From positions 42,776 through 106,775 of the IMG/VR virus record IMGVR_UViG_3300049491_000418: a DNA stretch of 64,000 nucleotides, one strand, 5' to 3'. Of this stretch, positions 337 to 19,252 are shown piece by piece (position 1 is the stretch's first letter; each line of letters opens with the position of its first letter). The DNA comes from a virus. A program made the position numbers and the translations under genes. A model generated the notes under the pieces. That model had not been told where the DNA came from, did no database searches, and saw only the letters and a list, made by a program, of their open reading frames with translations.

Positions 337-3300
337 ATGGAAGAAGAAATTGGCTTAATGAATGATCTACCCACTGCTTCTAATATAAGTGTTCCTAGTG
401 GAGATAATCCTAATATTAGTTCTGCTCATGAATTACCTGTTAACCTAGGAGGTACAGCTTCTGGCTTACCTGTCTATGTTCCTAACAATCCTTCAACAAG
501 AGGAAGTGGTAAACCTGAGTTTAGAGAACAGTCTCTTGAGGAGATTATGGATGGTATGGATATTTCTGATAAAAGTGGTGCTTTAGATTATGTTTCAGCA
601 AGAGATTTACCAGGATCAGGCAGATATGATAAAGGTGTTTATGTTGGAAGAGATGCAGAGGAAATGTATGCTCAACAACAATCTACTGCAGAGAAATGGG
701 GTAATGGTGTGGCCAAGATGGTTGGTACTGCAGCAACTACTTTTGTTAGTGGTACTGTTGGTACCTTAAATGGTATTGGTGCCATGTTTGCTGAGAATAG
801 ATTGGCTGCTTTCTATGATAATGATACTAACCGTAAGATGGATGAGTATAATAAGAAGATGGAAGATTATCTTCCAAATTATTATACCCAAGCAGAAACA
901 AGTGCATCTTGGTTATCTCCTAAGAATGTATGGACAGCCAACTTCTGGTCAGATAAAGTAATAAAAAATTTAGGTTTCTCTATTGGTTCAATGGCTGGTG
1001 GAGCTGCTTGGAGTAAAGCTTTTGGCTTTGTAGGTAAGATTAATGCCTTAGTTAGAGCAGAAAAGGGTTTAGAAACTCTTACTGCTGTAGAAGCTGCTAT
1101 GGTTAATGCCAATAGTGTTTCTAAGTTTGGAGCAGTATCTAAAGCCTTAAATGGTTTAGCTACAAAATATGTAAATCCTGCAGGTGCTTATATTCTTGCT
1201 AATGGTGAAAGAGCTACTATAGCCTTAATGGGTACTATGGGTGAGGCTAGTATGGAGGCTCTCCAAAATATGAATGACTTTAGAAATAAACTTATAAAAG
1301 AATATAAACTTCAATCAGGTGTTGAACCATCTGGTGAAGATCTTGAGGAAATTAATAACATGGCTGACCATGTTGGTAATTTTACTTGGGGAATGAATGT
1401 TGCTTTGTTATCTGCTACTAATTATATTCAATTACCAAAAATACTTAATAGTAGTAAAACAGCTGAGAGGAGAGCAATTAATGAACTTGCTAAAGAATCA
1501 GTGGCAGAAGGGGCTACTATAGCTGAGAAAACAGCTGCTAAATATGGAGCAAAAGCTTCTAATTTAGAAAGAGCTTTTGGTAAACCAGGCAAACTATTTG
1601 GTGATTACTTAGTTAATCCAGTTTCTTTATTATTTGCTCCTTCTGAGGCTTTTGAAGAAGGAATGCAATTTGCTATTCAAACAGGGGTTGAAGACTATTT
1701 CAATAGAGCACATCAAAATGAACAAGATACTAATGATTTTTGGAATAATACTTTAGACAGTATGGGTAATGTGTTTAGCTATGGTGTTAAACAAGCTCTT
1801 ACTACTAAGGAAGGTTTAGAGGGAATTTTGATTGGTGGTATTTCTGGAGGTCTTCAAACTTCTTTCTCTCCTTTTGGAGAGAACAATATAAAAGAAAGAG
1901 GCTTTACAGGAACAGGTGGTCAAGTAGGTAGAAATACTGCTGCAGCAATTACTGAAATCAATAATTCCAAAAACCTTACTCAAGCTTTAAAAGATGCTAG
2001 AAACTTTGTTTCTATTGGTATTGGTTCTCAAAAAAACCGTCAAGAGGCTGTAGCAAATAATGACACTTTTAATGAGAAAAACTTTGAAAAAGATTATGCT
2101 CTTTCATATATAATGCCTAGAGTTAAATATGGTAAAATAGATGCTGTACTTTCAGAACTAGATTTATATAGAAGACAAGCTTTATCTGATGCTGGTTTTG
2201 AGGACTTAAAGGCTTCTGAAGTTGTTCTTGAGAATGAAACTAAACAACAGTTTATAAAAAGACTTGATAATATTGAAAGTACATCTAGACAGGTAAGTAA
2301 AACCTATGATATAATTAATGATAGATACTCTAATATTACAGATGAAAAAGGTAGAAGACTTTATGATGATAAAGTTGTAGATGAGTTAGTTTATGCTGCA
2401 GCTAAAACTGTAGATGCTGATGAGCGTTTAAAAGATTTATCATCAGAAATGTCACTTGCTGGATTGGGTATAGATAGATTAAGAACAGCTATGCAGGCTT
2501 CTCCAAGTTGGGAAGATAATAATACTAAAGGTGTTATCAAAGATGCTGAAGTTCAGAAAGAAATAAATGCTTTATTTGCTGAAGCAAAAATAAAAGATCC
2601 TAATAATTTACAAAATTACAGAGAGAAAGTATTTGATTTTGCCAATCTATTGGTTGACAGAAAAAGATATATTGATGATTATAACAAAAGAATTTTAACT
2701 CCTGAAGAGTTTAGTGCACCTGATGTAGATACTACAGAGTATCCTCCTATTGGTAGTCCTAAAGAGGTAATGAAAGTTACTACATCTACAGGAGATGTTA
2801 ATGTTAATGTTGGAGAAGAATACATAATGGGTAGAGTTACTCTTAAGAGTAAAAAAGGTCATGATGTATATGAGGCTCCTACTATAACTATCTTAGGGCA
2901 AAATGAAGATGGTACACTAAAAGTTAAGAAAGAGGATGGTACCATAGTTTCTATGGATCCTGAGGAACTAGAAAGTAGAAGTCTTACTAAAGCTGAGGAT
3001 GTTAGAAAGAATCCTAAAATTTCTTTCTATATTTACAACTGGAATGTTGTTTGGAAAAATAGAAGTGTTAAGGGTGCTGATGGTAAAGCTGCTGTTGGTA
3101 GAATTGTTTATGATAAAAAACAGGATAGATTACTGTTTCAATATATAGGTAAAGGTGGTGTTTTAATGGAACAAGAGGTTATTAACACTATGTTCTCATA
3201 TAAAACAGCAACTAAACTAGGTTTTAAACAACCTTATATAACTGCGCAATCTGTTTTAACACCAGCACAAGAAGCTTCTATGGAGAAATTCATTGAATCT

Positions 3301-6300
3301 AAGATGTCTTTTTCAGAAAAAATCAAAGCTAGAAACTCTATTATCTCTAATCTATATGAGACAAGTAAAGCTAGACTTGAACAAGTAACCAAAGAACTTA
3401 CTTCTGCAAAAGAGAAAGTAGATAAAGCAGCCTCTACAATAGAAGAACAAGTTAAAAAAGGTATAGAAACTAAAGAAGGAACCTGGAAAGTAAAGGCTAT
3501 AAAGTCTATTACTAAAATGGCCAGAGATCTTGGTGCTCTAGATGCTTCTTTATTACAACAAATTGAGGATTTAGAGAATGAAAAAGAAGAGCTTGAAGCT
3601 ACTATTCCTTATTTCAAAGACTTCTTGGAAGATATTATGTCTACTCCAGAGAGTGGAAAAGAAATGATTGAAGATATTAAGAAAGATATCAATGACTTAG
3701 AAGATCTTATTGACACTACCAAGGATGCAATAAGTAAAACCAAATCAGCTATCAAGCTTGTTGAAGATTTATTGAAAAATGCTTTAGGGGTATTTAATGA
3801 TTATGTAAAAAGACTTAAAGAAGAGAATCCCAACATGCCTTTATTCCTAGATGATTTTCTAGCTAAGTTAGAAAAATATCTTGGAGAAGAAGGAGCAAAA
3901 CAATTTGTTGCTGACAAACTAGGATTCACTGAACAGGTATTAGAACTAGATAGTGATATTAGTGACTTTAAAGATGAGTTAAAAATTCCTGATCTACAAA
4001 AGAGAGCATCAACCTTGTCAACTGATCTAAAGGAACTAGAAAAAGGTTTAGATGATCTTATAGCTGCCCAGATGGCTAAGGCCAAGATACTAGATGAATT
4101 TAAAGAGTTTGCTGATAGAGAAAAAGCTGTACAGGCGGAAGAGAAACGTATGCACACTAATCCTACCTTAGTTAAAGATCTTATTGGTACATTGAATAAA
4201 ACTGTCCAAAACTTCTTTGGAAACAAAGCCTATGATCCTATGTCTAAGAAACCAGACATGGCTGTAGTAAGAAGTACACGTCCTATTAGTGATGGTAAAC
4301 CTCATCAAGAGAGAGCTAATCACTTTGGAGCAAGAATGGATAGTTTTTCTAAAAAGAAAAGAGATAGTATTAGAGGTATTATAGTTACACAAAAAACACA
4401 AGGGGGAGTTATTGATGGCTTGGTAGAACACCTACTATCTCAGGTTCCTGAGGAAGACAAAGAAAAATATCCTGCTAATGAGGTTATAGCTTTGGTAATG
4501 GTGGAAGTTGATAAAAAAGGAAATCAGTTCTTACTTGATCAAGATGGTAAACGTCTTTCTAAAGATGCTGATGTTATTAACTCAGCAATATACCAAGTAT
4601 TTCCAACTAAAAGTTTAAAAGGTAACTATGTAGATGCTGATGGTAATAGAAAGTTTGGTAGTATGTTTAGAGATGATACTCCACAGTCTACTGTAGACTC
4701 ATTAACTAAACAGTATGCAGCATGGGTAGATGATCAATTAGCTGCTGATGCAATGCCTGCACCTTATAAAGTAAGTGCTTCTTTTGGTTATCCTGAATTA
4801 CAAAAAGTAATGGGAGAGACTAAAGAGGAGATAGATCATAATGCAAGAACTTCTGCTAAGGCAGCAGGCTTGGTTACTGATGTTATGCTTGAAAGAGAAC
4901 CTGTTATACAGGTTAAAACTAGTGATGCTCCTGTTACCTTAGGTAATGTTACTTTCACCTCCCCAAAAGGCAGAGTGTTCTTAACTCTTCCTAATGGTAT
5001 TGCTAAACTATTCAATAGAAAGTTTACAGCAACTGAAGCTGAAACTATTTATGATGTTCTTCTTCAAGTAACTAAGAATGTCCGTGACCATGGTGAAGTA
5101 AGACCAGAGACTGAAAGATTGTTTAATTGGTTAAGATCTACAACATACTGGGGATTTTCTAAAGATAGACAAGGTAATCCTAAACCTGCTGGATATAATA
5201 ATATGTGGTTTCAGGAAGTTACTGATACCAATAATGAGAAAAGATTAAAATTATATATTTCTGGAAAAACAACAGACCCTACTCAGGCTATTGATTTCAC
5301 TTATTCTAGTTTATATAATAGAAAAGGAGATATTATGATGCTCCTTCAAAATATGTATAATAATACCAGTAATCATTTAACCAATGAGAGTAACTGGCAG
5401 AATCCTTATTCCCAAATAGTAGGTATTAATGAGGATGGTTCTCCTCAAACTGTTGACTGGCCAAACTATCAATCTTATTTACTATCAGATAAAATGCCTG
5501 ATGGTGGTGTAAGAAAGAATGAAGATATTCCATTAATTACTAAGTTTAGACCATTAGTAGATGAGAATGATACTAATAGAAAAGGTATTTATTTCACATT
5601 GAAAAGTGGTCCAACATCATTTACAATGCCTGAAAAGGAAGAAGCAACTCCTGCAACTTCAGAAGAACCTAGTGCCTCTACCACTCCAACAGATTCTGCT
5701 CCTACAGTAACTCCAACAAAAGAAGAAGGATCTATATCAATGACTATAGATGGATATGAATTTGATGGGAAAACACCTAATACAATGGAGTTAAATGCAG
5801 GACCTATAACATTTACTGTTGATATAGAGAAACAAATGGCAGATGGTGCTGGGGTGTCTATAACTTCTCCAGGAGAAACTGTAGAAGCTCTTATAGCTGC
5901 TAAAGGTTATGCTGAAGATCATGCTTACAATGTAATAAATGCTACTGTACTAGCAAGACTTAAACCTTCTTTAGAAAAAGGTATTGCTGAATTAAAAGCA
6001 AGACAAACTGGTAAGGTAGAGCAAAAAGAACCATCTGTAGAAGCTTCTGCTGTAATAACTCCTACTCCTAAAGTTGGTAAGCTTGATCTTACTGGTGAGA
6101 ACTGGAATCCTATCAATACTAAATATGGCCCAACAAGATTTAAAATTAATGCTGATAAGTTTTTAGCAGGAGATGTATCTCTTTCTGCTATTAATGTTGA
6201 AATGGATCCAGACTTAGTTGATGCTGTTATAGAAGCTAAGCAATCTCAGAATTATGATGAAGAGGCTGCACACAAGTTTATTCAACAAAATGTATTGTTT

Positions 6301-9300
6301 TTGATTAAAGATGAGTTGGCTTTATATGATATAAAGAAAAACTCTTCTACACCTTTAGAGAATCCACCTGTTGAGGATACAACTGAAGAAGCTCCTGCTG
6401 AAGAAGAAACTATAGAGGAGATTGATGAAGTAAGAGAAGCTACAGATGAGTCTGTAAATGCTCCAACAGAAACTGAGATAGCTGATGGTAACAATACTAC
6501 TATTGAAGAAGCTGCTCCTAAGAAAAGAGGAGGCTTTGGTAAGGTAGATCCTAATAGAATTCCTTTAAGAGATAGAAAAGAGTATAGACTTCAAGTTCTT
6601 AAAGAAGCTAAAGCATTTGAAGGAGAGAATTGGGAGAAAGTTGAAAAGTGGTTAGCTGCTAACTTTCCTGGTCTTCCTGTATACAGAGTTAAAAATATGA
6701 TTAAAGCTTCCAATGGTAGACAAGCTTGGGGTGCTTTAATGGATGGTTCTATATATCTAACTCAAAATGCTGAGGTAGGTACTGTATATCATGAGGTATT
6801 TGAGGCTGTATGGAAGATGTTTGCTGGACCTAAAGAGAAAAATGCTATTATTAAAGAGTTTAGAAACAGACCTGGTTATTATAAAGATAGATTTACTGGA
6901 AAACTTATTAAGTTTTCAAGAGCTACAGATGCTGAGCTTAAAGAAGAACTTGCTGAGGAATTCAGAGATAAAGTATTGTATGGTAAAGATCCTGTTAGAA
7001 TTAAAGGAAGAAATCTTATCTCAAGATTGTTCAATGAATTACTAGACTTTATTCATAAGTTCTTTACAGGAAAAGAAGCTGTTAATAATACCAAACAATT
7101 GTTTGACAAAATTGGTAATGGTTATTATAAAAACATACATAATCCCTATTTAACAAAATTATCTTTTCCTCAAGAAGGAATTATAGATATAGAAGATATG
7201 GATGTTGGTGATAATGCTGAGCTTAGAATCAACAATATCCCTGCAATTCAAGTGCATGATATTATCCAACACATGACATATAGCTTATTGGCTCCTTTAT
7301 CAGAATCCAATGATATTTTATTCTCTCTTTCTGATATTTTAAGTAAGGGTAAAACTAAAATATATGCAGAGCTACAAGAAGAGGTACTAGGTGCTATTAA
7401 TGAGAAAGGTCTTGTTCTTGTTGATAAAGAAGCTAGTGGTCAAAAACTAACTGATTCAGAACAAAGAATGTTTGATAACCTTGAAACTCTTTATAACAAT
7501 GTAGAGACTGAATGGAAAAACATAGTAGAAGAACATGTTAATTACTTAAAAACATATGCTCTTGAGTTTGATGAGAATGATGAGTTGAATATTAATGAAG
7601 GAGAACAATCTGGTAAAGAGGACTGGCAAGATGCCAGAACTATTGATTCCTTTAGAAAGTCTAATAGTGCAATAAAACTATTACTAGGAACACTACCAGT
7701 TAAGACTATGAAGAATGGATATCCAGAGACTGTGTATTCTTCTATAGGAGGATATACTCTCTTACCTGCTAATGCCGTTCATATAGATTTAATGAATAGA
7801 TTGCATGATTCAGTAGATATTGATGAGATGATGGAAAGACTTCAAAACATAGCTTTGAATGATCCAAAATACTTTCAATTGTTTGAGCGTTTAACAGGTA
7901 AACAACCATCTGCTAATCAGGATGTATACTCTGATATTTCTGATTCAGATTTCAGATTAATTTCTAGTTTCTGGAGAGTACTTAAAAAACAAAATGCTGA
8001 TGTTATCACTGTGTTTATTCAACCTGGTGGTGAGGTAATTGTTAGTGATAGTACTCTTGCTTCTGCAACTAAAGAGGCTAAAAGAGATATGATGAGTAAA
8101 ATCATTGATACTATGAAGACTGAGAAAACTCCTTATTTCTCTTATAATAGTAAGACAGGTAGATATTCAGCTACAAAGGTTTTGAAAGATGTTACTTTTA
8201 GTTCTGAAATGTCTTCATATACAAATTTTCTTAAGAACTTAGGGATTAAGATAGATCCTGTAAAGTTGTCTGATACTCTTGATGAGAATCAGAAAAAAAT
8301 GTTTAGAAAAACTGTAGGATTTATTAAAGAAACTATTGAAGTTATTGGTGATAAAGTCAAAACAACTAATCCAGATACTGGAGAGGAGATGACTATAGAT
8401 ACAGGTATTATGTCTATTAATACTTCCACTCTTAATATAGATGCTGATATGACCAGATTGGGAATCATTCAAGCTATTCTTGAAAATCCTGTATTTGAAA
8501 GTACATATTTCAATATCAATGGTCAACGTACACAATCTTATGTTGGTACTAATACAGTTAGTAGCTTCTATGATGTACTATCTAAGGTTGTTGACTTTAG
8601 TGAAGATCTACAGGAACCTCAAAATAAAGGATTCAGATACTTATTAACAGACAAGTTTGCTAAAAACTCTCAAATTCTTAAAAAATTGTTTGTTCAAAAT
8701 GATGATGGTTCTTACGGAGAAAGAAAGGATGGTACTGAGGGTATTATGAAAACTGTTTTTATTGATGGAACTATTGATGAGTACTCTGGTAAAAAGAAAG
8801 AATCTTCAAAATTGAACTATGTACAACGGTTTGTACAAGAACTTAATTTGAACCTAGAAGGGATTTATTTAAATCTGGTTCCAGGAGATGCTTCTATTGA
8901 ACATGCTGTAAGACTGCACTCAGATGATAATCCATTTGTAAATAAAGATTCTTATGAAAACGGACGTCATCTTCCAATATTCAGAGATTACTTCATAGAT
9001 GAGGTAGAGTTAGCAAGAGATGAAAGACTTGTGGCTAATGTTTCAGGAAGAAATAGTACAGATTTACGTTTCTTTAAATCTATTTTGGAAGATAAATCAA
9101 AAGCAAATAAAAATGCTTTACATGATGAGATAATGTATGATGAGAAAAATAAGGATAAAACCTCTGAAGAGTTATACAAATCTTATGAGAGCCAAATTAA
9201 TACTGCTGTTAATAAGTTTATAGTAGAACAAGGTAAGGAAACACAAAGATTATTTAATAAGTTTAATATCATTCAGGCAAATCCAGAAAATGGTTTAGAA

Positions 9301-12300
9301 GCTCCTGGATTAAACTTTAAACAAGATGAGCTTAAACCAGAGTTTCTTGCACAGAAACTTGAGGTAATGGCTGTCAACTATATGATAGCTAACATTGAGT
9401 TCCACAAACTTATATATTCAGATCCTTATCAATACTCTGATGAGCTTAAACGTATCAAAAACTTTAACTCACCAAGACAAGCTCTTGTATTTAATTCTCA
9501 AACATTAGGTAAGTTTTTACAAGACTTCTATAATAAAGGAGTTAATCCAAAAGATAAAGCAGCCTACACTGATTTCCAAAGAGATCATTTTAGAACAGTT
9601 ACTATTGATGATATATTTAGTACTAATAAAAATAAAGACTATGAAGATCCTTTTGAGGAAACAGATGGTGGTGGTTATATTACTATCCAAGCATTACGTA
9701 AGTTTAGATTAAGACTTGGTGATTGGACTCCTGCTAATGAAAGACAATTCCAATTTGACTTAGACTATGAAAGAAAGGTTAAAGCTGGTGCTAGTGCAGA
9801 AGATCTTAGAAAATTTCTTAAAAGAAATCCTAATATCAAAAACACTTATACTCCTGTTAAACCTATTGTATCTGGTAATAAAGAAAATGGTAGAGACTTC
9901 AATGATGTTGTATTACACAAATTTGCATTAGTGCCTCTTTCTTATAGAGTACTTCATGAGTTACAAGAAAATAGTTATGCCATTAAACTTCTTGATAAGA
10001 TGGTTAATGATGACATTGACTATGCTGTATATGCTTCGGGTAGTAAAGTTGGTACTGAGACAGTACATGAGCTTTATAATGAAGATGGTACTTTTAATAA
10101 TACTCCTTTTGAATCTCAAAGAGAGAAAGAAGGATTCTTACCTAACAATGTAAAACGTGGTGTATCAAATATTCCTTTCTCTATTGTAGGTTTACAAACT
10201 GAAGTTCCTTCAAAAGACACTCCTTTAGTTACTCAAGGATCACAAATAACCAAGTTGGTTACTATGGACTTTATGGAAGCTGGTATGCCTGTTGACTTCA
10301 TGCCTGAGGCAGAATTTATGGATAGATTTGCTGTTTGGACTACCACTGATGAAGAGGGTAGAATGAAATCTGAGCTATATAGAATGGTTCAACATAATCA
10401 AAATCTTCTTGAAGCAAAAATTGTGGAAGGGTATAATTCTCTTCTTAAAAAACTAGGAATTGTTCAAGGTAAAGAGGGTGACAATCTTACTTTCACTATT
10501 ACAGATAGAGATAAGTTCATTAAAACTCTTAAGGATGAGATCCTTAAAAGAGAAGTTAACTATAATATAACTGATTCTTTTGATGGATTTGAGAGTGGAC
10601 ATGTTGTTCTTGAAGCTACTCCAGCATATCAACAGATTAGAAACATTCTTTATTCTATTGCAGATAAGAATGTTGTTAGACCTAAGATCTCTGGAGGTAT
10701 GAAAGTACAAATTCCTTCTTCATTGTTATTGGAACAACACAGAGTGAATATTGGTTCCTTTAAAAACAAAGCAGGGGAAATCAAACAAATCTTTGAGTCT
10801 AGTGAATTAGAGTTCTACACAAAATCAGAAGATGGTAAGTCAGTTAATGTAGCTGAGATAATGGTTGGTAGATGGTTCAAAAGTGATAAGACTGATGAAG
10901 AGTTGATTGAATATTTCAATAATGATCCAGAAGGTAAAAAACAACTTGAAGCATTAGCAGGTATAGCCTTTAGGATTCCTACTCAAAAACAAAACTCTAT
11001 TGATGTATTCAAGATTAAGAAGTTTCTTCCTAAGGACTTTGGAGATAGTGTTGTGGTTCCTTCTGCCTTGGTTAAGAAAGTAGGATCGGATTTTGATATT
11101 GATAAATTGTCAATCTATTTGAAAAACCTATATCCAGGAAAGGATAAAAATTTAAAAACTGTTCCTTATTTAGGAACTGGTGATCAAGCTCTTGACAAAT
11201 TTAGAAAGCTTTTTGATGAAGGAGAGTTTGATGAATATGTAAAAACATTTAAAGATTTTCTAGATCTTGATAGTGCTGAGGATAGATTACTTGAAAGTAT
11301 TTTTCCTGAAGACTATGCAGAACAAAGATCAATACAAAAAGAGGATGTAGTTAATAAATTATATAAAGAGTCTCTTGAGAATGAATATATAAGATCATTA
11401 GAAGGGCTTGTATCTCATCCTAGTAACTATGAGGCTTTGGTAAAACCAAACTCAGCTCAAGATCTTAAAGATATAACTAATGATATAAATGAGAGAAAAG
11501 GATTGGAGAAAACTGATTATACTAATGTAGGTAATATGCTTAACAGAGGATTTATGTCTAAACAAAGACATGAGTTTGTTACTGGTAAACAAGCTATTGG
11601 TATTGCTGCAGTTGCTCAAACTAATCACTCTCAAAATCAAAGAAGCCCATTATTTCTTGATTTCAGAAAACTTAAGAAAGAAGGCATGGATGAATTGGAT
11701 AGAACTCTTTTGGGTGGAAATCCTAAAGCTAAATCATATGCAAATAATCCTAGAATAAACTTTAAACATTATAATTCAATTTTGGTTGATGGTATTGCAT
11801 TTCCTACTTTATCTCTTATTAAAGCAGCAGGACAGGCTACAGAATATATCTCAGATACAATTGGGATGTTTATTGATGGTTATGTGGATGTTGCTAAAGG
11901 TGGATGGATTATGGAGATGGGTGCAACTCCTAATACTGCAGGTACCTGGTTGTACTTGATTAAGATAGGAGTTCCTATTAAAGATGTTGCATACTTCATG
12001 AATCAACCTATTATTGTTGACTATTTACAAAGAATAGAGAATAAAGGTCAAACTTGGTTATTCTCAGAAGGAAACATACTTAAAACTCTAGAGTTATATG
12101 AAAGTCCAGAGGATACCAGTAAACCAGAAGTAAGAGCTGTCATAGATAGTATAACATCAATTCCTAATCTATCAACATTAAAAAGTAATATTGGTAAGAC
12201 TATTGAAGATATGACTCCTCAAGAGTTATATGAGCAACACTTTATGTTGAAAGAGTTTGTTAAATATGCTAAACAAGCATCTCAATTATTTGAGGTAACT

Positions 12301-14352
12301 CAGGGTTCTAACCATGATACAGCAAACATCAATGATCCTTACTTAGTATTTAAAAAACAACTTCAATTAGAAAGTGCCAGAAATACTATCATCTCTGGTT
12401 TAGATAGAGAAGGAAAAATTATTCCTGCTGTAGATAGTATTATGAAAACATCTTTTGTTGGTAAATTGAAAAGCCACATTGATAACTACAGAGATGCTTT
12501 TGCTGAGATGTTGCTTTCAGATAGAAATAGAGTTAGAGAAGTAATGGAAGATGTGTTACGTCCTTATAGTAAAATGAGTGATAGAGACTTTGTTAAGATT
12601 TCACAAAAAGCTGTTAATGATTTATTTGACTGGGCTGTTCAAAATGATAGAAGTATCAATAACAAAGTTGTTAGTACCTTGTTAGGAACAGATACTGAGA
12701 AAAGTGCTGCTAAACAAATTATAGAATACAGAGATAGTATATTGGGTAATCCTGCTAAAAACATTCCTGCTAAACCTGATCATCCTTTATTTGATAACAT
12801 CATTTTGAACTCTGTTACTTTAGAGGCTGGAGAAAATAACAAAAAGGTAGACAATATCTATCTAGGAAAAATTAGTAAAACATATGATCAAAACTTAGTA
12901 ATCTATGGTTTTAATGAATTAAGAACACACTTGAAAAATGAAAGCAATCCTTTATATGGTAAAATAGTTAGACTAGCTGTCTTACAATCAGGGTTAACAA
13001 ACTCTAAGATAGCTTTTACAGCTCTTCTTCCTTATAAAGATTTCAAGGAAGTATACAATGCTACCTTGTCTCAGTTAGAAGAAAAAGAAAATCTTTCTGA
13101 TTTTAAAAATATAGATGTTTTTGAAAGAAACAATTGGAATAACAGAGATGCAATTCCTATGGTTAGAGGAGAGATGAGAGAGTCTAAAAATAGTGTTGAC
13201 TTTGGTACATATGATTTAAATGCTGCTTTTGTTGGGAAACAGCTTAAGAGAGCTATCAATGCTTTTCAAGTACCTCATGTAGTAAATATTTCTGCTACTT
13301 CTCAAGAGGGACGTTCAGAATTTATTGTTTATACTTGGGAAAGTTATCTTCCTAAACCTAAACGTATTAGAGCTAAAAAGACTGGGGATAAAAGTCATAT
13401 CAATAAATACCTTATGAAAAAGGTTTACACAGTTAATGAAAAAGGAGAAAGAGTTCCTTATATTAATGTTTCTGAAGATAAAAATGTTCCTGGTAAATTT
13501 TATTATAAATTTGTATACAAAGCAATTAATGCTTGGGGAGATAGTTTCAAAGCTCAAGAACTTTATGATGAGGTAGTTCCTTCTAAGTTAGATAATGACT
13601 TCAAAAAGATTGAGTTAAAAAATGAAGCTAATACTGGCAGAAGACTTGGTGCTCCTGAAGTTGAGGATAGTTTAATCGTAGACCTTATGGAAGGAAGAAT
13701 AACAGCTGATCAGTTAAAAGCTATCAACCTTGCAAAAGATATAGATGCTTTAGGAATTTCACCAGATGTAAATGCTCCTATAGAGCCTCTAGCGGAGGAA
13801 GGTCCTAGATATTATGAAGGAGAAATTACTCCTTCTGCTGATACAGTATTTGTATTTGGTAGTAATCCTGAAGGAAGACATGGTGATGGTGCTGCTGCTG
13901 AAGCTATGGCTAAGTTTGGTGCCAAGTACTATCAAGGTAGAGGTTTACAAGGAGGTGCTTATGCTCTTGTTACTAAAAACCTAAAATCAGGATTTAAAGA
14001 ACCAAAAACTGGTATCACCTATGATGTTGCTGGGGAAAGATCTGTTAGACCTGATCAAATTGTTAATAACATTATAGAAATGTATACTGTGGCTAGAGCT
14101 AATCCTACTAAGAAATTCAAAATAGGATTTAGAAATACTATAAGTAAATCTCGTAATGGATATACAGGTTATGAGATGATGGACATGTTCAAGAATGCTG
14201 GTGAGATACCTGCTAATGTTTACTTCAGTAAAGAATGGGTAGATACAGGTAAGATGGATGCTGATTATACATCATTGGCAGAATCAAAAATAATTAATCC
14301 TAATAATGCTCCTGGTATATTACCAGAGATAGACAGAACCACTGAATGTTAA
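337..14352 (+). CDS. Giant virion RNA polymerase polyprotein (crAss-like gp66 type), 4671 aa
   Basis: One uninterrupted frame of 14 kb. The C-terminal third contains GSDFDIDKL with acidic residues D3585, D3587 and D3589, which fits the Mg-binding DxDxD motif of double-psi beta-barrel RNA polymerases; about 130 residues upstream GGMKVQIPSSL fits the other barrel. Single-chain polymerases of this type are known from crAss-like phages (Cellulophaga phage phi14:2 gp66, 2180 aa), packaged in the virion and injected to transcribe early genes. Other parts seen: Gly/Ala-rich hydrophobic stretches near residues 130-153 and 202-232; long coiled coil about 1010-1270; a Pro/Thr/Ser/Glu linker about 1767-1798 and an acidic linker about 2010-2066; a helix with HEVFE at 2152-2156, like a zincin helix but lacking the second His; and a C-terminal domain about 4500-4640 with FVFGSNPEGRHGDG, a motif found in phage and bacterial proteins and reminiscent of macro-type folds. 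The protein is about twice the length of gp66, so it is probably a fusion of polymerase with packaged accessory domains. It may be processed after translation. Confidence 0.92.
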   Translation: MEEEIGLMNDLPTASNISVPSGDNPNISSAHELPVNLGGTASGLPVYVPNNPSTRGSGKPEFREQSLEEIMDGMDISDKSGALDYVSARDLPGSGRYDKGVYVGRDAEEMYAQQQSTAEKWGNGVAKMVGTAATTFVSGTVGTLNGIGAMFAENRLAAFYDNDTNRKMDEYNKKMEDYLPNYYTQAETSASWLSPKNVWTANFWSDKVIKNLGFSIGSMAGGAAWSKAFGFVGKINALVRAEKGLETLTAVEAAMVNANSVSKFGAVSKALNGLATKYVNPAGAYILANGERATIALMGTMGEASMEALQNMNDFRNKLIKEYKLQSGVEPSGEDLEEINNMADHVGNFTWGMNVALLSATNYIQLPKILNSSKTAERRAINELAKESVAEGATIAEKTAAKYGAKASNLERAFGKPGKLFGDYLVNPVSLLFAPSEAFEEGMQFAIQTGVEDYFNRAHQNEQDTNDFWNNTLDSMGNVFSYGVKQALTTKEGLEGILIGGISGGLQTSFSPFGENNIKERGFTGTGGQVGRNTAAAITEINNSKNLTQALKDARNFVSIGIGSQKNRQEAVANNDTFNEKNFEKDYALSYIMPRVKYGKIDAVLSELDLYRRQALSDAGFEDLKASEVVLENETKQQFIKRLDNIESTSRQVSKTYDIINDRYSNITDEKGRRLYDDKVVDELVYAAAKTVDADERLKDLSSEMSLAGLGIDRLRTAMQASPSWEDNNTKGVIKDAEVQKEINALFAEAKIKDPNNLQNYREKVFDFANLLVDRKRYIDDYNKRILTPEEFSAPDVDTTEYPPIGSPKEVMKVTTSTGDVNVNVGEEYIMGRVTLKSKKGHDVYEAPTITILGQNEDGTLKVKKEDGTIVSMDPEELESRSLTKAEDVRKNPKISFYIYNWNVVWKNRSVKGADGKAAVGRIVYDKKQDRLLFQYIGKGGVLMEQEVINTMFSYKTATKLGFKQPYITAQSVLTPAQEASMEKFIESKMSFSEKIKARNSIISNLYETSKARLEQVTKELTSAKEKVDKAASTIEEQVKKGIETKEGTWKVKAIKSITKMARDLGALDASLLQQIEDLENEKEELEATIPYFKDFLEDIMSTPESGKEMIEDIKKDINDLEDLIDTTKDAISKTKSAIKLVEDLLKNALGVFNDYVKRLKEENPNMPLFLDDFLAKLEKYLGEEGAKQFVADKLGFTEQVLELDSDISDFKDELKIPDLQKRASTLSTDLKELEKGLDDLIAAQMAKAKILDEFKEFADREKAVQAEEKRMHTNPTLVKDLIGTLNKTVQNFFGNKAYDPMSKKPDMAVVRSTRPISDGKPHQERANHFGARMDSFSKKKRDSIRGIIVTQKTQGGVIDGLVEHLLSQVPEEDKEKYPANEVIALVMVEVDKKGNQFLLDQDGKRLSKDADVINSAIYQVFPTKSLKGNYVDADGNRKFGSMFRDDTPQSTVDSLTKQYAAWVDDQLAADAMPAPYKVSASFGYPELQKVMGETKEEIDHNARTSAKAAGLVTDVMLEREPVIQVKTSDAPVTLGNVTFTSPKGRVFLTLPNGIAKLFNRKFTATEAETIYDVLLQVTKNVRDHGEVRPETERLFNWLRSTTYWGFSKDRQGNPKPAGYNNMWFQEVTDTNNEKRLKLYISGKTTDPTQAIDFTYSSLYNRKGDIMMLLQNMYNNTSNHLTNESNWQNPYSQIVGINEDGSPQTVDWPNYQSYLLSDKMPDGGVRKNEDIPLITKFRPLVDENDTNRKGIYFTLKSGPTSFTMPEKEEATPATSEEPSASTTPTDSAPTVTPTKEEGSISMTIDGYEFDGKTPNTMELNAGPITFTVDIEKQMADGAGVSITSPGETVEALIAAKGYAEDHAYNVINATVLARLKPSLEKGIAELKARQTGKVEQKEPSVEASAVITPTPKVGKLDLTGENWNPINTKYGPTRFKINADKFLAGDVSLSAINVEMDPDLVDAVIEAKQSQNYDEEAAHKFIQQNVLFLIKDELALYDIKKNSSTPLENPPVEDTTEEAPAEEETIEEIDEVREATDESVNAPTETEIADGNNTTIEEAAPKKRGGFGKVDPNRIPLRDRKEYRLQVLKEAKAFEGENWEKVEKWLAANFPGLPVYRVKNMIKASNGRQAWGALMDGSIYLTQNAEVGTVYHEVFEAVWKMFAGPKEKNAIIKEFRNRPGYYKDRFTGKLIKFSRATDAELKEELAEEFRDKVLYGKDPVRIKGRNLISRLFNELLDFIHKFFTGKEAVNNTKQLFDKIGNGYYKNIHNPYLTKLSFPQEGIIDIEDMDVGDNAELRINNIPAIQVHDIIQHMTYSLLAPLSESNDILFSLSDILSKGKTKIYAELQEEVLGAINEKGLVLVDKEASGQKLTDSEQRMFDNLETLYNNVETEWKNIVEEHVNYLKTYALEFDENDELNINEGEQSGKEDWQDARTIDSFRKSNSAIKLLLGTLPVKTMKNGYPETVYSSIGGYTLLPANAVHIDLMNRLHDSVDIDEMMERLQNIALNDPKYFQLFERLTGKQPSANQDVYSDISDSDFRLISSFWRVLKKQNADVITVFIQPGGEVIVSDSTLASATKEAKRDMMSKIIDTMKTEKTPYFSYNSKTGRYSATKVLKDVTFSSEMSSYTNFLKNLGIKIDPVKLSDTLDENQKKMFRKTVGFIKETIEVIGDKVKTTNPDTGEEMTIDTGIMSINTSTLNIDADMTRLGIIQAILENPVFESTYFNINGQRTQSYVGTNTVSSFYDVLSKVVDFSEDLQEPQNKGFRYLLTDKFAKNSQILKKLFVQNDDGSYGERKDGTEGIMKTVFIDGTIDEYSGKKKESSKLNYVQRFVQELNLNLEGIYLNLVPGDASIEHAVRLHSDDNPFVNKDSYENGRHLPIFRDYFIDEVELARDERLVANVSGRNSTDLRFFKSILEDKSKANKNALHDEIMYDEKNKDKTSEELYKSYESQINTAVNKFIVEQGKETQRLFNKFNIIQANPENGLEAPGLNFKQDELKPEFLAQKLEVMAVNYMIANIEFHKLIYSDPYQYSDELKRIKNFNSPRQALVFNSQTLGKFLQDFYNKGVNPKDKAAYTDFQRDHFRTVTIDDIFSTNKNKDYEDPFEETDGGGYITIQALRKFRLRLGDWTPANERQFQFDLDYERKVKAGASAEDLRKFLKRNPNIKNTYTPVKPIVSGNKENGRDFNDVVLHKFALVPLSYRVLHELQENSYAIKLLDKMVNDDIDYAVYASGSKVGTETVHELYNEDGTFNNTPFESQREKEGFLPNNVKRGVSNIPFSIVGLQTEVPSKDTPLVTQGSQITKLVTMDFMEAGMPVDFMPEAEFMDRFAVWTTTDEEGRMKSELYRMVQHNQNLLEAKIVEGYNSLLKKLGIVQGKEGDNLTFTITDRDKFIKTLKDEILKREVNYNITDSFDGFESGHVVLEATPAYQQIRNILYSIADKNVVRPKISGGMKVQIPSSLLLEQHRVNIGSFKNKAGEIKQIFESSELEFYTKSEDGKSVNVAEIMVGRWFKSDKTDEELIEYFNNDPEGKKQLEALAGIAFRIPTQKQNSIDVFKIKKFLPKDFGDSVVVPSALVKKVGSDFDIDKLSIYLKNLYPGKDKNLKTVPYLGTGDQALDKFRKLFDEGEFDEYVKTFKDFLDLDSAEDRLLESIFPEDYAEQRSIQKEDVVNKLYKESLENEYIRSLEGLVSHPSNYEALVKPNSAQDLKDITNDINERKGLEKTDYTNVGNMLNRGFMSKQRHEFVTGKQAIGIAAVAQTNHSQNQRSPLFLDFRKLKKEGMDELDRTLLGGNPKAKSYANNPRINFKHYNSILVDGIAFPTLSLIKAAGQATEYISDTIGMFIDGYVDVAKGGWIMEMGATPNTAGTWLYLIKIGVPIKDVAYFMNQPIIVDYLQRIENKGQTWLFSEGNILKTLELYESPEDTSKPEVRAVIDSITSIPNLSTLKSNIGKTIEDMTPQELYEQHFMLKEFVKYAKQASQLFEVTQGSNHDTANINDPYLVFKKQLQLESARNTIISGLDREGKIIPAVDSIMKTSFVGKLKSHIDNYRDAFAEMLLSDRNRVREVMEDVLRPYSKMSDRDFVKISQKAVNDLFDWAVQNDRSINNKVVSTLLGTDTEKSAAKQIIEYRDSILGNPAKNIPAKPDHPLFDNIILNSVTLEAGENNKKVDNIYLGKISKTYDQNLVIYGFNELRTHLKNESNPLYGKIVRLAVLQSGLTNSKIAFTALLPYKDFKEVYNATLSQLEEKENLSDFKNIDVFERNNWNNRDAIPMVRGEMRESKNSVDFGTYDLNAAFVGKQLKRAINAFQVPHVVNISATSQEGRSEFIVYTWESYLPKPKRIRAKKTGDKSHINKYLMKKVYTVNEKGERVPYINVSEDKNVPGKFYYKFVYKAINAWGDSFKAQELYDEVVPSKLDNDFKKIELKNEANTGRRLGAPEVEDSLIVDLMEGRITADQLKAINLAKDIDALGISPDVNAPIEPLAEEGPRYYEGEITPSADTVFVFGSNPEGRHGDGAAAEAMAKFGAKYYQGRGLQGGAYALVTKNLKSGFKEPKTGITYDVAGERSVRPDQIVNNIIEMYTVARANPTKKFKIGFRNTISKSRNGYTGYEMMDMFKNAGEIPANVYFSKEWVDTGKMDADYTSLAESKIINPNNAPGILPEIDRTTEC

Positions 14353-14356
14353 TACT

Positions 14357-17300
14357 ATGAGCTGTAAAATTCAAATAAAAGAGAATATTACTCAAGTTAT
14401 TGAGAAGAAAACTAGTGGTGCTACTGAAAAACCATTAGAAGAAGCTCAGGCTATTGGGATAGAAGTAAACAGTCAATTTGGTGTTGATGTTGTTTCCTTC
14501 TCCCAAACTCCAGATTATCTTGTAAAGAGAACTATTTCTATTCCTGATAGTCTTGTAGATATCTATTATGATAATGAAGTAGCTTTAGAGGAATCAGAGA
14601 AGGCATCTATTGTTGAAACTCCCAGTATTGTACCCACTTCTAAGGCTACTAGTGAAACTCTTATTAAGGTAAAAGAGGTTATGCAACAAATGAAAGTAAG
14701 TTTTCAATTATTGCATGACTACGCAAAAGGTAACCCAGCAATAGAAACAAAAGATGTTAGTGGACTTGCTGATCTATCTGCAGGAGTAATAGCTGTAGCT
14801 CAAGGTTCAGAAAGTGCTACATTAACAGAGGAAATGGTCCATATAGCTACTGCTATTTTGGAACAAACAGATCCTAAGTTAATAACATCACTTATATCTA
14901 AGATTGAGAGATTTAAAATTTACAAACTTACTTATGATGCTTATAAAGGAAATAAGAATTACCAGTTATCAAATGGTAAACCAGACATACGTAAGATTAA
15001 AAAAGAAGCTGTTGATAAACTGATTGCTGAATATATTGTTAAACAATCTCAAGGTAACTCAGATTTTCCAGAACTTACTGAACAAAGAGAAAGAAACTTG
15101 GTTCAATCATGGTGGGATTCTATTCTTGAATATTTAAGAAGCTTGTATGGTAAATCTAAAGTGGATTTATTTGCACAAGCTGCAGATCATATCATGTCTG
15201 GTAATATAGGTACTATTGAAGATATTAAAGCTCAAGGAGTTTACTATCAATTAGGAACTGATGCAGTTGGAGATAATCCTCTTGTTGATAAGTTTGTTAA
15301 TATCATCAATGACATTGACAGTAGAATGAAACTTGATCCTAATCCTTCAGATAGACATTATACATTAGATGGTGAAAGGGTAGCAACTAGTGTTACTGAG
15401 AAGATTGGTAAATCTAAAAATCTACCTGATAGAACTCCTGAACAAAAGATTAGTGATGATCAAAAGAAAACATGGGGTTCTGAAGGACATATGTATATTG
15501 AAAAGTATATAAAAACCAATCTTATAGATCAAGATGGATTTAAAAAACCATTTACAAATAGTCTTATAAATACTACTCTTGATAGTGAAGCTCAAGAAAA
15601 ACTTAATAGGTTTGCTGAGAACTTGATTAATTCCTATCCTAAAGGAACAAGATTTCTTATTGAAAAGAAAGCAGTTAATCAAAGAGAAAAAGGTATGCTT
15701 GGATCTACAATAGATTTCATAGCTGTATATCCTGCAAAAAAAGTAGATGGTTCTCCAGATGTGAATATAGATATACTTGACTGGAAGTTCACTGATATAG
15801 ATAAATCTATAGAGGAAGATGTTCCATATGTTAAACAAAAAGACTGGAAGCCTCAGATGGGTGAGTATACCAAGATGATGTATGAATACGGTTTCAAACC
15901 TGGTCAGATTAAAAAAGCCAGAATGATTCCTTTCATTATGAATTATGACAATATTGTTAAAGGAGATAGAAAAAGTGGTTTAAGACCAACCTCTATTGAA
16001 ATTGGAAAGGTTGACAGTCTTACTGAAACTAATTTATATTTACTTCCTGTTCCAATCAATTCTGAGAGCACAGGAAATGATGCCATTGATGATTTGTTGA
16101 AATCTCTTAGAGGATACTGGGAGAAAATGTATTCAAAACAAGTTATTCCAGAAGCCAGAGCAACAAAACTGATTCATTTGAATCAATTAAGTAAAGCTAT
16201 CCGTATATTACATGTTACTTTGAACTTTGCTCCTCTTGTAAGTGTTGGTAAAACCTTCATCTCAACCTCTAGGGCTTCTCTAGATTCATTTAAAGGTGTG
16301 GATTATACTAAGTTATCAAAAGAACAAATTGAGGCCAAATTACAAGACTTAATTGAGTTTAAAAACACTGCATTGAACTTTGCATCATTAGATGAGGCAT
16401 ATATTTCTCATTATGGAGATGTTAATCTTACTGATGAGGCAAATAAAATATTATTAGGTCTTAAAGCTGTTTCTGCAAATGCCAAATCTAAATTAAAGGA
16501 AATTCTAGAACTTCAAAAAGAATATGTAGCACAAATTGCTGTTAGAGAAAATTTTGTTAATGAAAACAATAAAACTTCTTTATTTGATGCTGAGAAAGAG
16601 ATTGGTGCACTTATCAAAAATTTTGTAGAAGGAAGTAGACTTCCCGCCAAGCTTATAAATTTTGCTTCTAATCTTATCATGAGAGTGAAAAGATCTGCTG
16701 AGAAAAGATTCATAGAGAAGTTTGATGAATTTAAAAAAGTATTACTTCCTTTAGAAGAGGAAGCTTCTAGACAAGGTAAAAGAGCATTTGATATGATAGG
16801 AACTGTTGATAAAACAGGACTACATCTTATAAAAAAAGTTGATAAAAAGTTCTGGACCGATGTAAAGGATGCTAAAGAGAAAGGTAAGGAGAACAAAAAA
16901 TTTCTTATGGATAATATGGATATGGAAAAATTCAATTCCTTGGCTAAAGAAGCTATAAATAAAGGAGTTGAAGAGCTTAAACTTATAGAGTTCTCTATGG
17001 ACAAAGAAAAAGATGATTATATTAGAAGTGGTAAGATCAAACGTCTAAGAAAATCAGTAGATATTAATAGAGAAGACTTTAATGGTTATAATGAATACCT
17101 ATTCAACCATATTTTTAGACAAGTTGTTAAGGCAGATGATCATTTATCTGAGGAATACAAGCAAATGAGTAAAAGTAAAGCATCCTTAGATGCTTGGAAC
17201 TTCTTTACAGCAATGAATGAGAAAGCTAGAGACATAGGATACATTGATAAACAAGGTATGTCCTTCTTTCCATTGATTGAAGCTAGTATTGTTGATAAAT

Positions 17301-19252
17301 TTAGACAAACAAGTAATGCTGGAGTTGAGTTAAAGAACTTCTTTAAAGATTTATATACTGTTAGAGAGTCTGAAGAGCAAATTTTCTCTAAAAAAGATTC
17401 AGAAACAGGAGAAATTAAGAAATCTATACCAAAACACTTCACAAAACAAGGAAATCTTGCTACAGAAAGACTTTCTACTGATTTAAACAAGGTAGGGGCA
17501 CTCTGGATCAAAGCTTTAATGGATTATGAAGCCAAACAATCAATTGAGAATACCCTATTAACTATTCAGGCTGTTGAAAGAGCTAAAGGAAGTCTTGTTG
17601 TTAATGAACAAGGTGATTTAGTTAGTGAAGGGGGTAAGTTTGTTGTTAATAAATCTGTAAATAAGAATGCAGATATAATGGAAGCCATCTTAAATGATGC
17701 TATATATGATTTGCAGGAAGACTTAGGGAATATTGGTAACATTACTATCCAAAAAACAGCAAACAAACTTGGTAAAACAGCTGAAGGTAAAGAAAACCTA
17801 AATGTATCTATTAAAAAAGGACTTAAGAATGCTGATACTCTTACTAGAGCTCTTGCTGTTGGTCTAAAACCATTAATTGGTTTGGCTAACTGGATGGGTT
17901 ATAATTTACATGCTGTTATTACAGGAGGTAATATGTATACTGTTGCAGAATTTATGAAAAACAATGCAAGAGTAACTGTATTTGGAGGACTCTCATTAGA
18001 ACATAAAGCTCTATTACACTTAGTAACTACTGCTCCTGATGATGAGATGACAGAGATGAGAAGAAAAGCAGCCAGAGAAAAAAGTCTAATATCTTATCTT
18101 TCCACATGGTCATTCAGTGATGTTATGATGCTCACTAACTCTTTCCCTGAAAGAAAATTAGCTTTAGCTAGCGCTAAAAGCTTTAATGACAATGCTATAA
18201 TAATTGATGGTAAGATTGTAAATGCCAGACAATATCTTAGAAAACAAGATAGATCTCAAAAATATAAGTTATCTCCTTCTGAAAGAAAGGTTCTTGAAAG
18301 ATCCTTTGATGATAGAGTTAAATCTTTATTAGAATCTTCAACCAAGTTAACTTCAGCTGTTAAAGTAACAGATGAAAAGATTACAATTGAAGGAGTATTA
18401 GAAGATGAGATTGTAAAATATAGTTTGAAAGTATCTGAATTTTCCAGAAACATGAATGGCTCTATGAACATAGATAACAAAGCTGGTTATAGAAGAGATA
18501 CCATGTTCAGTTCATTTATGATGTTTAAGAACTGGATCCCTAAATTATTAATTTCTAGAACAGGAGAGATAAAATATAACCTTGAAACAGAAGATTGGGA
18601 GTATGGTAGAATGAGAGCATTTGCTAAGGTATTTGCTGATAGTGGCTTTAGTGTTATTAAGAATATGAGAGCAATTATAACAGGTTCTCCTGAAGGACTA
18701 GCTATCCTTGATAGACTTCTACAGGAAAAGAAAGATGCATACTTTGAAAAAACTGGTCAAGAGTTAGAAATAACTGAAGAGGAGTTTTATGATTTAATGA
18801 GAAGAGAACTTGTTAATGAAGCCAAAGAACTTGGTATGTTATTTACCACATTTGCTATGGCAGCTATGATAGGTTTTATAAAACCACCTGAAGATGCTAC
18901 AAATGATGAAAAAAATAAATGGAAGTTATGGGCTAAAGCATCTAATAAGATAGCGGAAGAACTTAGTTTTTATTATAGTCCTTTATCTATGGAAAGTATT
19001 ACTAAAGGAAGTATATTACCTTCTTTAGGTTTATTAACAAAAGCATGGAGATTTTTTACAGCATTTAGTAAAGAATCTTATGGATATACAACAGGAGATG
19101 AAGAACTAATGGATAAAACATATCCTATTAAGTATTTCTTTAATTTAATACCTGGATTGGCTCAATTTCAAAATGATTATCTTCCATACATTGATGCAGA
19201 ACTTGCTAAAGAGATGGGTATAAGAGTTACAGTAGAAGCCAGAAGACAATAA
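14357..19252 (+). CDS. Large virion-type protein with PD-(D/E)XK nuclease domain, 1631 aa
   Basis: The gene starts 4 nt after the polymerase stop. Residues about 335-560 carry a Cas4/RecB-like PD-(D/E)XK core: a WGSEGHMYIEKYI helix, then STIDFIAVY with D453, then IDILDWKF with D475 and K477. The rest is mostly charged helix, with hydrophobic stretches about 1165-1200 and 1490-1510 (MLFTTFAMAAMIGF). A TEEMVH helix sits near residue 155. Large helical proteins beside the polymerase gene in crAss-like phages are capsid cargo proteins ejected with DNA; I infer the same here. The nuclease could act on host DNA or on the incoming genome end. Catalytic activity is unproven, though the core acidic and lysine residues are present. 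No homology to a named gene is claimed. Confidence 0.82.
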   Translation: MSCKIQIKENITQVIEKKTSGATEKPLEEAQAIGIEVNSQFGVDVVSFSQTPDYLVKRTISIPDSLVDIYYDNEVALEESEKASIVETPSIVPTSKATSETLIKVKEVMQQMKVSFQLLHDYAKGNPAIETKDVSGLADLSAGVIAVAQGSESATLTEEMVHIATAILEQTDPKLITSLISKIERFKIYKLTYDAYKGNKNYQLSNGKPDIRKIKKEAVDKLIAEYIVKQSQGNSDFPELTEQRERNLVQSWWDSILEYLRSLYGKSKVDLFAQAADHIMSGNIGTIEDIKAQGVYYQLGTDAVGDNPLVDKFVNIINDIDSRMKLDPNPSDRHYTLDGERVATSVTEKIGKSKNLPDRTPEQKISDDQKKTWGSEGHMYIEKYIKTNLIDQDGFKKPFTNSLINTTLDSEAQEKLNRFAENLINSYPKGTRFLIEKKAVNQREKGMLGSTIDFIAVYPAKKVDGSPDVNIDILDWKFTDIDKSIEEDVPYVKQKDWKPQMGEYTKMMYEYGFKPGQIKKARMIPFIMNYDNIVKGDRKSGLRPTSIEIGKVDSLTETNLYLLPVPINSESTGNDAIDDLLKSLRGYWEKMYSKQVIPEARATKLIHLNQLSKAIRILHVTLNFAPLVSVGKTFISTSRASLDSFKGVDYTKLSKEQIEAKLQDLIEFKNTALNFASLDEAYISHYGDVNLTDEANKILLGLKAVSANAKSKLKEILELQKEYVAQIAVRENFVNENNKTSLFDAEKEIGALIKNFVEGSRLPAKLINFASNLIMRVKRSAEKRFIEKFDEFKKVLLPLEEEASRQGKRAFDMIGTVDKTGLHLIKKVDKKFWTDVKDAKEKGKENKKFLMDNMDMEKFNSLAKEAINKGVEELKLIEFSMDKEKDDYIRSGKIKRLRKSVDINREDFNGYNEYLFNHIFRQVVKADDHLSEEYKQMSKSKASLDAWNFFTAMNEKARDIGYIDKQGMSFFPLIEASIVDKFRQTSNAGVELKNFFKDLYTVRESEEQIFSKKDSETGEIKKSIPKHFTKQGNLATERLSTDLNKVGALWIKALMDYEAKQSIENTLLTIQAVERAKGSLVVNEQGDLVSEGGKFVVNKSVNKNADIMEAILNDAIYDLQEDLGNIGNITIQKTANKLGKTAEGKENLNVSIKKGLKNADTLTRALAVGLKPLIGLANWMGYNLHAVITGGNMYTVAEFMKNNARVTVFGGLSLEHKALLHLVTTAPDDEMTEMRRKAAREKSLISYLSTWSFSDVMMLTNSFPERKLALASAKSFNDNAIIIDGKIVNARQYLRKQDRSQKYKLSPSERKVLERSFDDRVKSLLESSTKLTSAVKVTDEKITIEGVLEDEIVKYSLKVSEFSRNMNGSMNIDNKAGYRRDTMFSSFMMFKNWIPKLLISRTGEIKYNLETEDWEYGRMRAFAKVFADSGFSVIKNMRAIITGSPEGLAILDRLLQEKKDAYFEKTGQELEITEEEFYDLMRRELVNEAKELGMLFTTFAMAAMIGFIKPPEDATNDEKNKWKLWAKASNKIAEELSFYYSPLSMESITKGSILPSLGLLTKAWRFFTAFSKESYGYTTGDEELMDKTYPIKYFFNLIPGLAQFQNDYLPYIDAELAKEMGIRVTVEARRQ

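Follow-up and report, generated by a model that had tools for sequence, protein, structure and literature searches.

How crassviruses push several giant proteins through a narrow tail in order is an open question (PMC10172136). It is raised by a gene for a cargo polyprotein of 4671 amino acids (aa) in the window, i.e., the 64,000-nucleotide stretch comprising bases 42776-106775 of the 106,775-base IMG/VR phage record IMGVR_UViG_3300049491_000418. The window encodes a DNA polymerase A and RIIA/RIIB-like proteins with best matches to Crassvirales, and judged by gene content and homology its genome is that of a crAss-like phage. The polyprotein consists of unit A (approximately residues 1-2290) and unit B (approximately residues 2290-4671) and is followed by unit C. 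Across Crassvirales families, the terminal cysteines of these three proteins consistently follow the junctions between them. In the window phage, A and B form a fused chain with a C-terminal slot for what are probably effector domains, and we consider it probable that A, B, and C would be joined by terminal disulfides and ejected as a train. The following features, all on the plus strand, are referred to throughout.

337-14352, plus strand: cargo polyprotein A+B, 4671 aa, with a single cysteine (last residue)
604-5586, plus strand: block A (residues 90-1750), virion cargo corresponding by profile matches to phi14:2 gp67 and to gp47 of crAss001
5584-6621, plus strand: variable linker (residues 1750-2095) holding both disordered stretches, delimited by a drop of occupancy and conservation over 27 relatives
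6634-7176, plus strand: zincin-like domain (residues 2100-2280) with HEVFE at 2152-2156, closing unit A
7204-13671, plus strand: block B (approximately residues 2290-4445), crAss-like virion RNA polymerase, equivalent of phi14:2 gp66
11089-11103, plus strand: DFDID catalytic motif (residues 3585-3589)
13672-14346, plus strand: variable C-terminal slot (residues 4446-4670)
13804-14256, plus strand: A1S_2505 domain (residues 4490-4640), identified by NF049995 and macrodomain-like in fold by AlphaFold and Foldseek
14347-14349, plus strand: Cys4671, C-terminal residue and sole cysteine of the polyprotein
14357-19252, plus strand: unit C, 1631 aa, RNA-polymerase-associated cargo protein of the gp65/gp49 type with a single cysteine, assigned by synteny with phi14:2 g065
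14363-14365, plus strand: Cys3 of unit C (MSCKIQ...), its sole cysteine

An initial annotation, made from the sequence alone, had described a single polyprotein about twice as long as the characterised gp66 of phi14:2. The frame indeed runs uninterrupted from an ATG with zero internal stops, and gp66 measures 2180 aa. As judged by homology, the double length is explained by fusion of the virion RNA polymerase to the cargo protein that precedes it (gp67 in phi14:2, gp47 in crAss001). The unusual length could also reflect an assembly artefact, and a sequencing join of two genes had been named in the initial annotation as a finding that would refute it. The same layout recurs in independent assemblies, with 26 IMG/VR contigs aligning over the protein (27 sequences with the window's own), and the named phage cr50_1 encodes a 4774-aa homologue; an artefact was therefore rejected, its probability being virtually negligible. 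In total, 75 complete relatives with a length of 3.7-4.8 thousand aa (kaa) were found, plus one naturally split copy (L167). Apart from coiled-coil noise, sequence searches with the whole protein against Pfam, NCBIfam, PHROGs, and PDB matched only A1S_2505 and two uncharacterised PHROGs.

The DFDID motif is present and is the sole DxDxD in the 4671 residues; its surrounding GSDFD.DKL core is invariant over 24 relatives. A profile of relatives matched phi14:2 g066 with 2.5e-33 over residues 3300-3900, and without its tail unit B has approximately 2150 aa, near the length of gp66. A two-barrel fold around residues 3300-3700, proposed beforehand as a check, was recovered: Foldseek with an AlphaFold model of residues 3090-4089 (pLDDT 72.5) returned PDB 6VR4 (6vr4_A) first (E=1.7e-19, prob 1.00) and QDE-1, a two-barrel polymerase, second. 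For block A, profiles built from relatives matched cr112_1 (6e-60), phi14:2 g067 (1e-16, over residues 90-700), and crAss001 gp47 (9e-46), and by this homology the first approximately 2.3 kaa are a protein that other crassviruses encode as a separate gene (gp67, gp47). Taken together, profile and model matches identify the polyprotein as a crAss-like virion RNA polymerase fused to the preceding cargo protein. Packaging in the virion and transcription of early genes are known for homologues only and would apply here by analogy: phi14:2 g065-g067 are annotated from tandem mass spectrometry (MS/MS), and crAss001 gp47, gp49, and gp50 were detected in virions by mass spectrometry (PMC10172136). In cr108_1 (L001 16365-16656) and cr116_1 (L005 19608-20449) the polymerase gene is interrupted right at the DFDID region, likely by introns, and the cr116_1 gap contains a small unrelated ORF.

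A cysteine within the last 7 residues of the polyprotein was observed in all 75 complete relatives, in 39 of them as the very last residue, and it is kept in 41 of 41 lineages (<60% identity). Other cysteines are scarce (73 in 324,231 residues), and a C-terminal cysteine occurs in 10 of 225 other ORFs (Fisher p=6e-58, computed with 74 of 75). Unit C has an N-terminal cysteine in 74 of 74 proteins, which start with Met-x(0-5)-Cys, and in 65 of the 74 this is the sole cysteine; the N-terminal background is 17 of 147 (p=1e-42). Both backgrounds use stop-to-stop ORFs. As relatives are non-independent samples, the comparison also drew on lineages, on junction types, and on a prediction. Across relatives, the terminal peptides fall into several types unrelated to one another, thus it is the cysteine itself that is kept and no tag sequence. 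A portable C-terminal tag was rejected, since profiles of two terminal peptide types matched no ORF <2000 aa carrying the peptide, and so was a signal at the DNA level, since neither the cysteine codons nor the distances between genes are constant, and since in crAss001 gp47 lies on the strand opposite to gp49 and gp50. Inserted domains are purged of cysteine: fused A1S_2505 domains contain 1 cysteine in 5764 aa vs. 53 in 5690 aa of the standalone forms (p=2e-15).

Phages with separate genes for A, B, and C (phi14:2, crAss001, DAC15, Kolpuevirus, cr128_1, cr85_1, and cr112_1 were compared) have a cysteine at the end of A, at both ends of B (up to 8 residues from the end), and at the start of C. 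In phi14:2, the only cysteines are residue 1797 of 1797 in g067, residues 3 and 2179 of 2180 in g066, and residue 3 in g065; in crAss001, they are residue 2339 of 2341 in gp47, residues 5, 1334, and 2404 of 2412 in gp50, and residue 5 in gp49. In case of fused A and B (window, cr50_1, cr108_1, cr4_1), the N-terminal cysteine is absent and the C-terminal one is kept. L167, which belongs to the same clade as the window, has A (1470-7547) and B (7544-13996) naturally split and carries a cysteine on either side of the junction: A ends with KKCKG, B starts with MGVC and ends with AKCKG, and C starts with MATC. The rule was used as a prediction for five Intestiviridae genomes with fused B and C, where A ends with a cysteine, B-C starts with MSC, and the C-terminal cysteine is absent, each in 5 of 5. 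The N4 virion RNA polymerase (L207, gp50) has 0 cysteines in 3500 aa, which hints, by analogy, at a general avoidance of cysteine in ejected proteins.

Further ORFs with terminal cysteines were noticed. Two extra ORFs between polymerase and unit C (L023:13823-15400 and L161:14147-15412) contain exactly two cysteines, one per end, and from their sequence look like additional middle cargo proteins. In CrAssphage ZA (L204:1132-3519), the protein two genes before A ends in its only cysteine (..GGKQSCR), and the next protein lacks cysteine.

In the model proposed here, the fused chain of A, which ends in the zincin-like domain, and B would be carried in the head and enter the cell on ejection; there B would transcribe the early genes. 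Between Cys4671 and Cys3 of unit C, a head-to-tail disulfide would most likely form under the oxidising conditions of the virion; A, B, and C would exit in a fixed order as a single linear chain, and reduction in the cytosol would release the units. In phages that encode A and B separately, the same cysteine pair would link A to B, and in case of a fusion, the peptide bond would replace the pair. The polarity from the leading C-terminus to the next N-terminus is what a linear chain threaded through the tail needs. For crAss001, the view in PMC10172136 is that gp45 exits in the N to C direction and that cargo must partly unfold for ejection; disulfides are present in the tail and portal vertex according to the same paper, thus the virion allows such bonds. 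In general terms, the balance seems to tip slightly towards separate giant, nearly cysteine-free cargo proteins being coupled by single head-to-tail disulfides, evolutionarily interchangeable with fusion, with swappable anti-defence domains placed before the coupling cysteine.

Several observations weigh against the disulfide-linked train. The crAss001 cryo-EM map leaves the cargo mostly unresolved, and no disulfide among crAss001 cargo proteins is reported in PMC10172136. B-C of crAss002 fits the rule only if translation starts at Met33, and cr273_1 as annotated breaks the C-terminal rule with its nearest cysteine 49 residues from the end; its frame contains 36 in-frame stops and is recoded, and its C-terminus is uncertain. 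Extra internal cysteines occur in some polymerases (Kolpuevirus 7 in all, cr116_1 10, B-C of Intestiviridae 6-15). A phage thioredoxin is present in only 5 of 19 genomes and absent from the window genome; a phage-encoded redox partner is thus not general, and thioredoxin as an obligate partner was rejected.

As only position and conservation of the cysteines are known, from sequence, their thiols might serve otherwise, with no lasting disulfide between A, B, and C: they might share a metal site, anchor a lipid, be recognised by a packaging factor, or make a passing contact during assembly. We regard this as possible but rather unlikely, for the cysteines are paired by junction and polarity (C-terminal end upstream, N-terminal end downstream), are absent from free ends and fused junctions, and leave almost no other cysteine to misbond. 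A tag or lipid model predicts neither the loss of cysteines on fusion nor cysteines at both ends of middle cargo proteins.

Conservation over the 27 aligned sequences drops mainly at residues 1750-2095 and beyond 4445. The initial annotation had placed two disordered linkers in the first of these regions, and low-complexity sequence is found near residues 1770-1800 and 2010-2066, but both stretches lie within one variable linker. The long coiled coil of that annotation corresponds to a coiled-coil-like, glycine-poor region at approximately residues 1000-1240. The linker hosts inserted domains in relatives: DnaJ-like in L018 (5615-6715; 0.004, below the cut-off), and, by eye, SLOG-like and ASCH-like in L161 and L014 (5540-6715).

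Separable cargo units carried in one chain had also been proposed. A is indeed a gene of its own in other crassviruses, but the seam to B lies at approximately residue 2290, after the zincin-like domain and not at the two linker stretches. In crAss001 gp47 the same domain, with HEAFH, is situated near the C-terminal end (2125-2293 of 2341). His2152 and Glu2153 are invariant in 76 of 76 relatives. A zincin metallopeptidase is recognised by HExxH and a third ligand; the window has HEVFE, and the fifth position is glutamate in 62 relatives (HExxE, not HExxH) and histidine in 14. The motif is absent from L167, phi14:2, DAC15, and Kolpuevirus.

The variable linker, an invariant HE motif adjoining the seam, and the separate A and B genes of other crassviruses might indicate that during maturation the polyprotein is cleaved at its linkers to give separate units, with its zincin-like domain as a possible protease. 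The prevalence of HExxE and the phages wholly without the motif speak against this, and cleavage would free A from B without cysteines to rejoin them, a pair that the split phages do supply. Such processing is thus quite improbable, and the linker cleavage expected in the initial annotation found no support; the cysteine pattern instead suggests that the units stay together as a single chain, joined either by fusion or by cysteine pairs at the termini.

The second region of low conservation is, as its contents in relatives indicate, a slot where domains are exchanged between relatives, with tails >150 aa in 20 of 76. It contains A1S_2505 in the window phage and L007, NADAR in L035 (3.3e-14) and L027 (1.5e-12), just under the cut-off in L175 (1.7e-7) and weakly in L014, cpYpsA-SLOG in L183 and L186 (4e-10 and 2e-8), and DUF7831 in L123 (3e-38) and, alike, in L124. 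ART-PolyVal, SLOG, ASCH-like, and zincin-like domains were found as weak matches or by eye. In 77 whole records, NADAR matches are located solely inside the polymerase gene; in 27 records, A1S_2505 occurs twice in the polymerase gene and once standalone. Among the slot domains, PADLOC assigned only the NADAR tail, to a candidate family, and L191, by a weak match. The C-terminal FGSN-GRHG domain described earlier is confirmed (FVFGSN at 4505, GRHGDG at 4513, together 4505-4518), but it is no one-off, unexpected partner of a polymerase: A1S_2505 recurs in approximately 30 other crassvirus polymerases, where it precedes, lies within, or follows the core, and relatives carry other domains in the slot. 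A single origin of the A1S_2505 fusion was rejected, as fused and standalone forms interleave and the domain tree requires no fewer than 4 switches between the two.

The domain matches NCBIfam NF049995 with 9e-25 and 87 bits (curated cut-off of the A1S_2505 family: 45) and is under purifying selection (dN/dS ~0.11). Its AlphaFold model (pLDDT 92.5) found macrodomains or macro-like proteins at the first 40 ranks of the Foldseek PDB list (prob 0.82-1.00), TARG1, alphavirus nsP3, Poa1p, and DarG among them, and phage Macro proteins among the BFVD structure matches. From the model we assign a macrodomain-like fold and claim no membership of the superfamily. This assignment is weakened by the distance of the match (best PDB E=1.4e-3 for TARG1, TM ~0.5), by Pfam Macro PF01661, which does not match the domain and has no match with E<=0.001 in any of 48 records, the window's among them, and by PADLOC, which gave no supporting match. 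Searched against PDB sequences, an A1S_2505 profile found no macrodomain even with 72 sequences. The second catalytic residue of TARG1 sits in a loop, which is not recognisable in the A1S_2505 domain.

In DarT systems, ADP-ribose is taken off nucleic acids by macrodomains as well as by NADARs (PMC11833690, PMC11125620), and for viral Macro and NADAR proteins an action on the host's ADP-ribose signals at an early stage of infection has been proposed (PMC9503650). The sharing of one slot of an ejected protein by two ADP-ribose-type kinds of domain supports a role in co-injected counter-defence. By analogy, the slot domain looks like an interchangeable, co-injected effector of the ADP-ribose type, and the A1S_2505 domain is predicted most likely to bind or remove ADP-ribose-type products of host NAD-based defences at entry. 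Its fusion to a polymerase, the weak macrodomain match, and slot domains which hint at RNA or folding roles (ASCH-like, DnaJ-like) would also suit an accessory role in transcription or in the handling of RNA, or an inert domain. This is unlikely, as only 2 of 87 clade polymerases carry A1S_2505, which is thus not needed for transcription, as the slot is otherwise filled by NADAR, SLOG, and DUF7831, and as NADAR was confined to the polymerase gene in 77 genomes.

In unit C, a PD-(D/E)XK-like pattern (GSTIDFIAVY..IDILDWKF) was seen by eye at approximately residues 410-480, without a Pfam match. GIY-YIG-type homing endonuclease genes are located near the cargo operon in the window (21144-21857, Pfam) and, by eye, in L025:13921-14661 and L161:15436-16125. 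The window also encodes, at 21884-22483, a mucin-like protein mostly of threonine runs (TTTTTT, TSTTTEE) with an aspartate-rich tail.

Crassviruses are among the most abundant gut viruses, and their cargo proteins of 150-500 kDa must pass a narrow tail. If true, terminal disulfides would be a new way to build a polypeptide train, and the terminal cysteine code would provide a sequence rule for spotting co-ejected proteins. The swappable slot suggests that the polymerases double as effector carriers, probably against NAD/ADP-ribose-based immunity and acting before phage gene expression. Polyvalent proteins (PMC5512222) offer a comparison: they are large, consist of many domains, are injected, and carry effector domains that can be exchanged (ART and others). 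The present polyprotein is multidomain with an exchangeable slot, and its delivery is presumed from homologues. The viral NAD-ADPr network (PMC9503650) likewise includes virus-borne Macro, NADAR, and SLOG domains, but the passages of that source on phage Macro and NADAR call them typically standalone. Word searches of both sources did not find a crassvirus polymerase as carrier.

The closest known system is phi14:2 with gp66 (6VR4), gp67, and gp65, which shares the polymerase fold, the DFDID motif, the gene order A-B-C, and the terminal cysteine pattern, but has A and B as separate genes, a gp66 without A1S_2505, and no zincin motif in gp67 or gp66. In crAss001, gp47, gp50, and gp49 are the equivalents of A, B, and C in virions, with a zincin-like domain at the end of gp47 and terminal cysteines per junction; they are three polypeptides, with A on the opposite strand. 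The 4774-aa protein of cr50_1 (annotated as DNA helicase) is likewise an A+B fusion of near-equal length with A1S_2505 after the polymerase and a terminal cysteine, but it belongs to another family (Suoliviridae), and A1S_2505 lies approximately 740 aa before its C-terminus. The N4 virion RNA polymerase, which has a T7-like fold, resembles the polyprotein as a giant ejected polymerase free of internal cysteines and differs from it as a single chain without a terminal cysteine.
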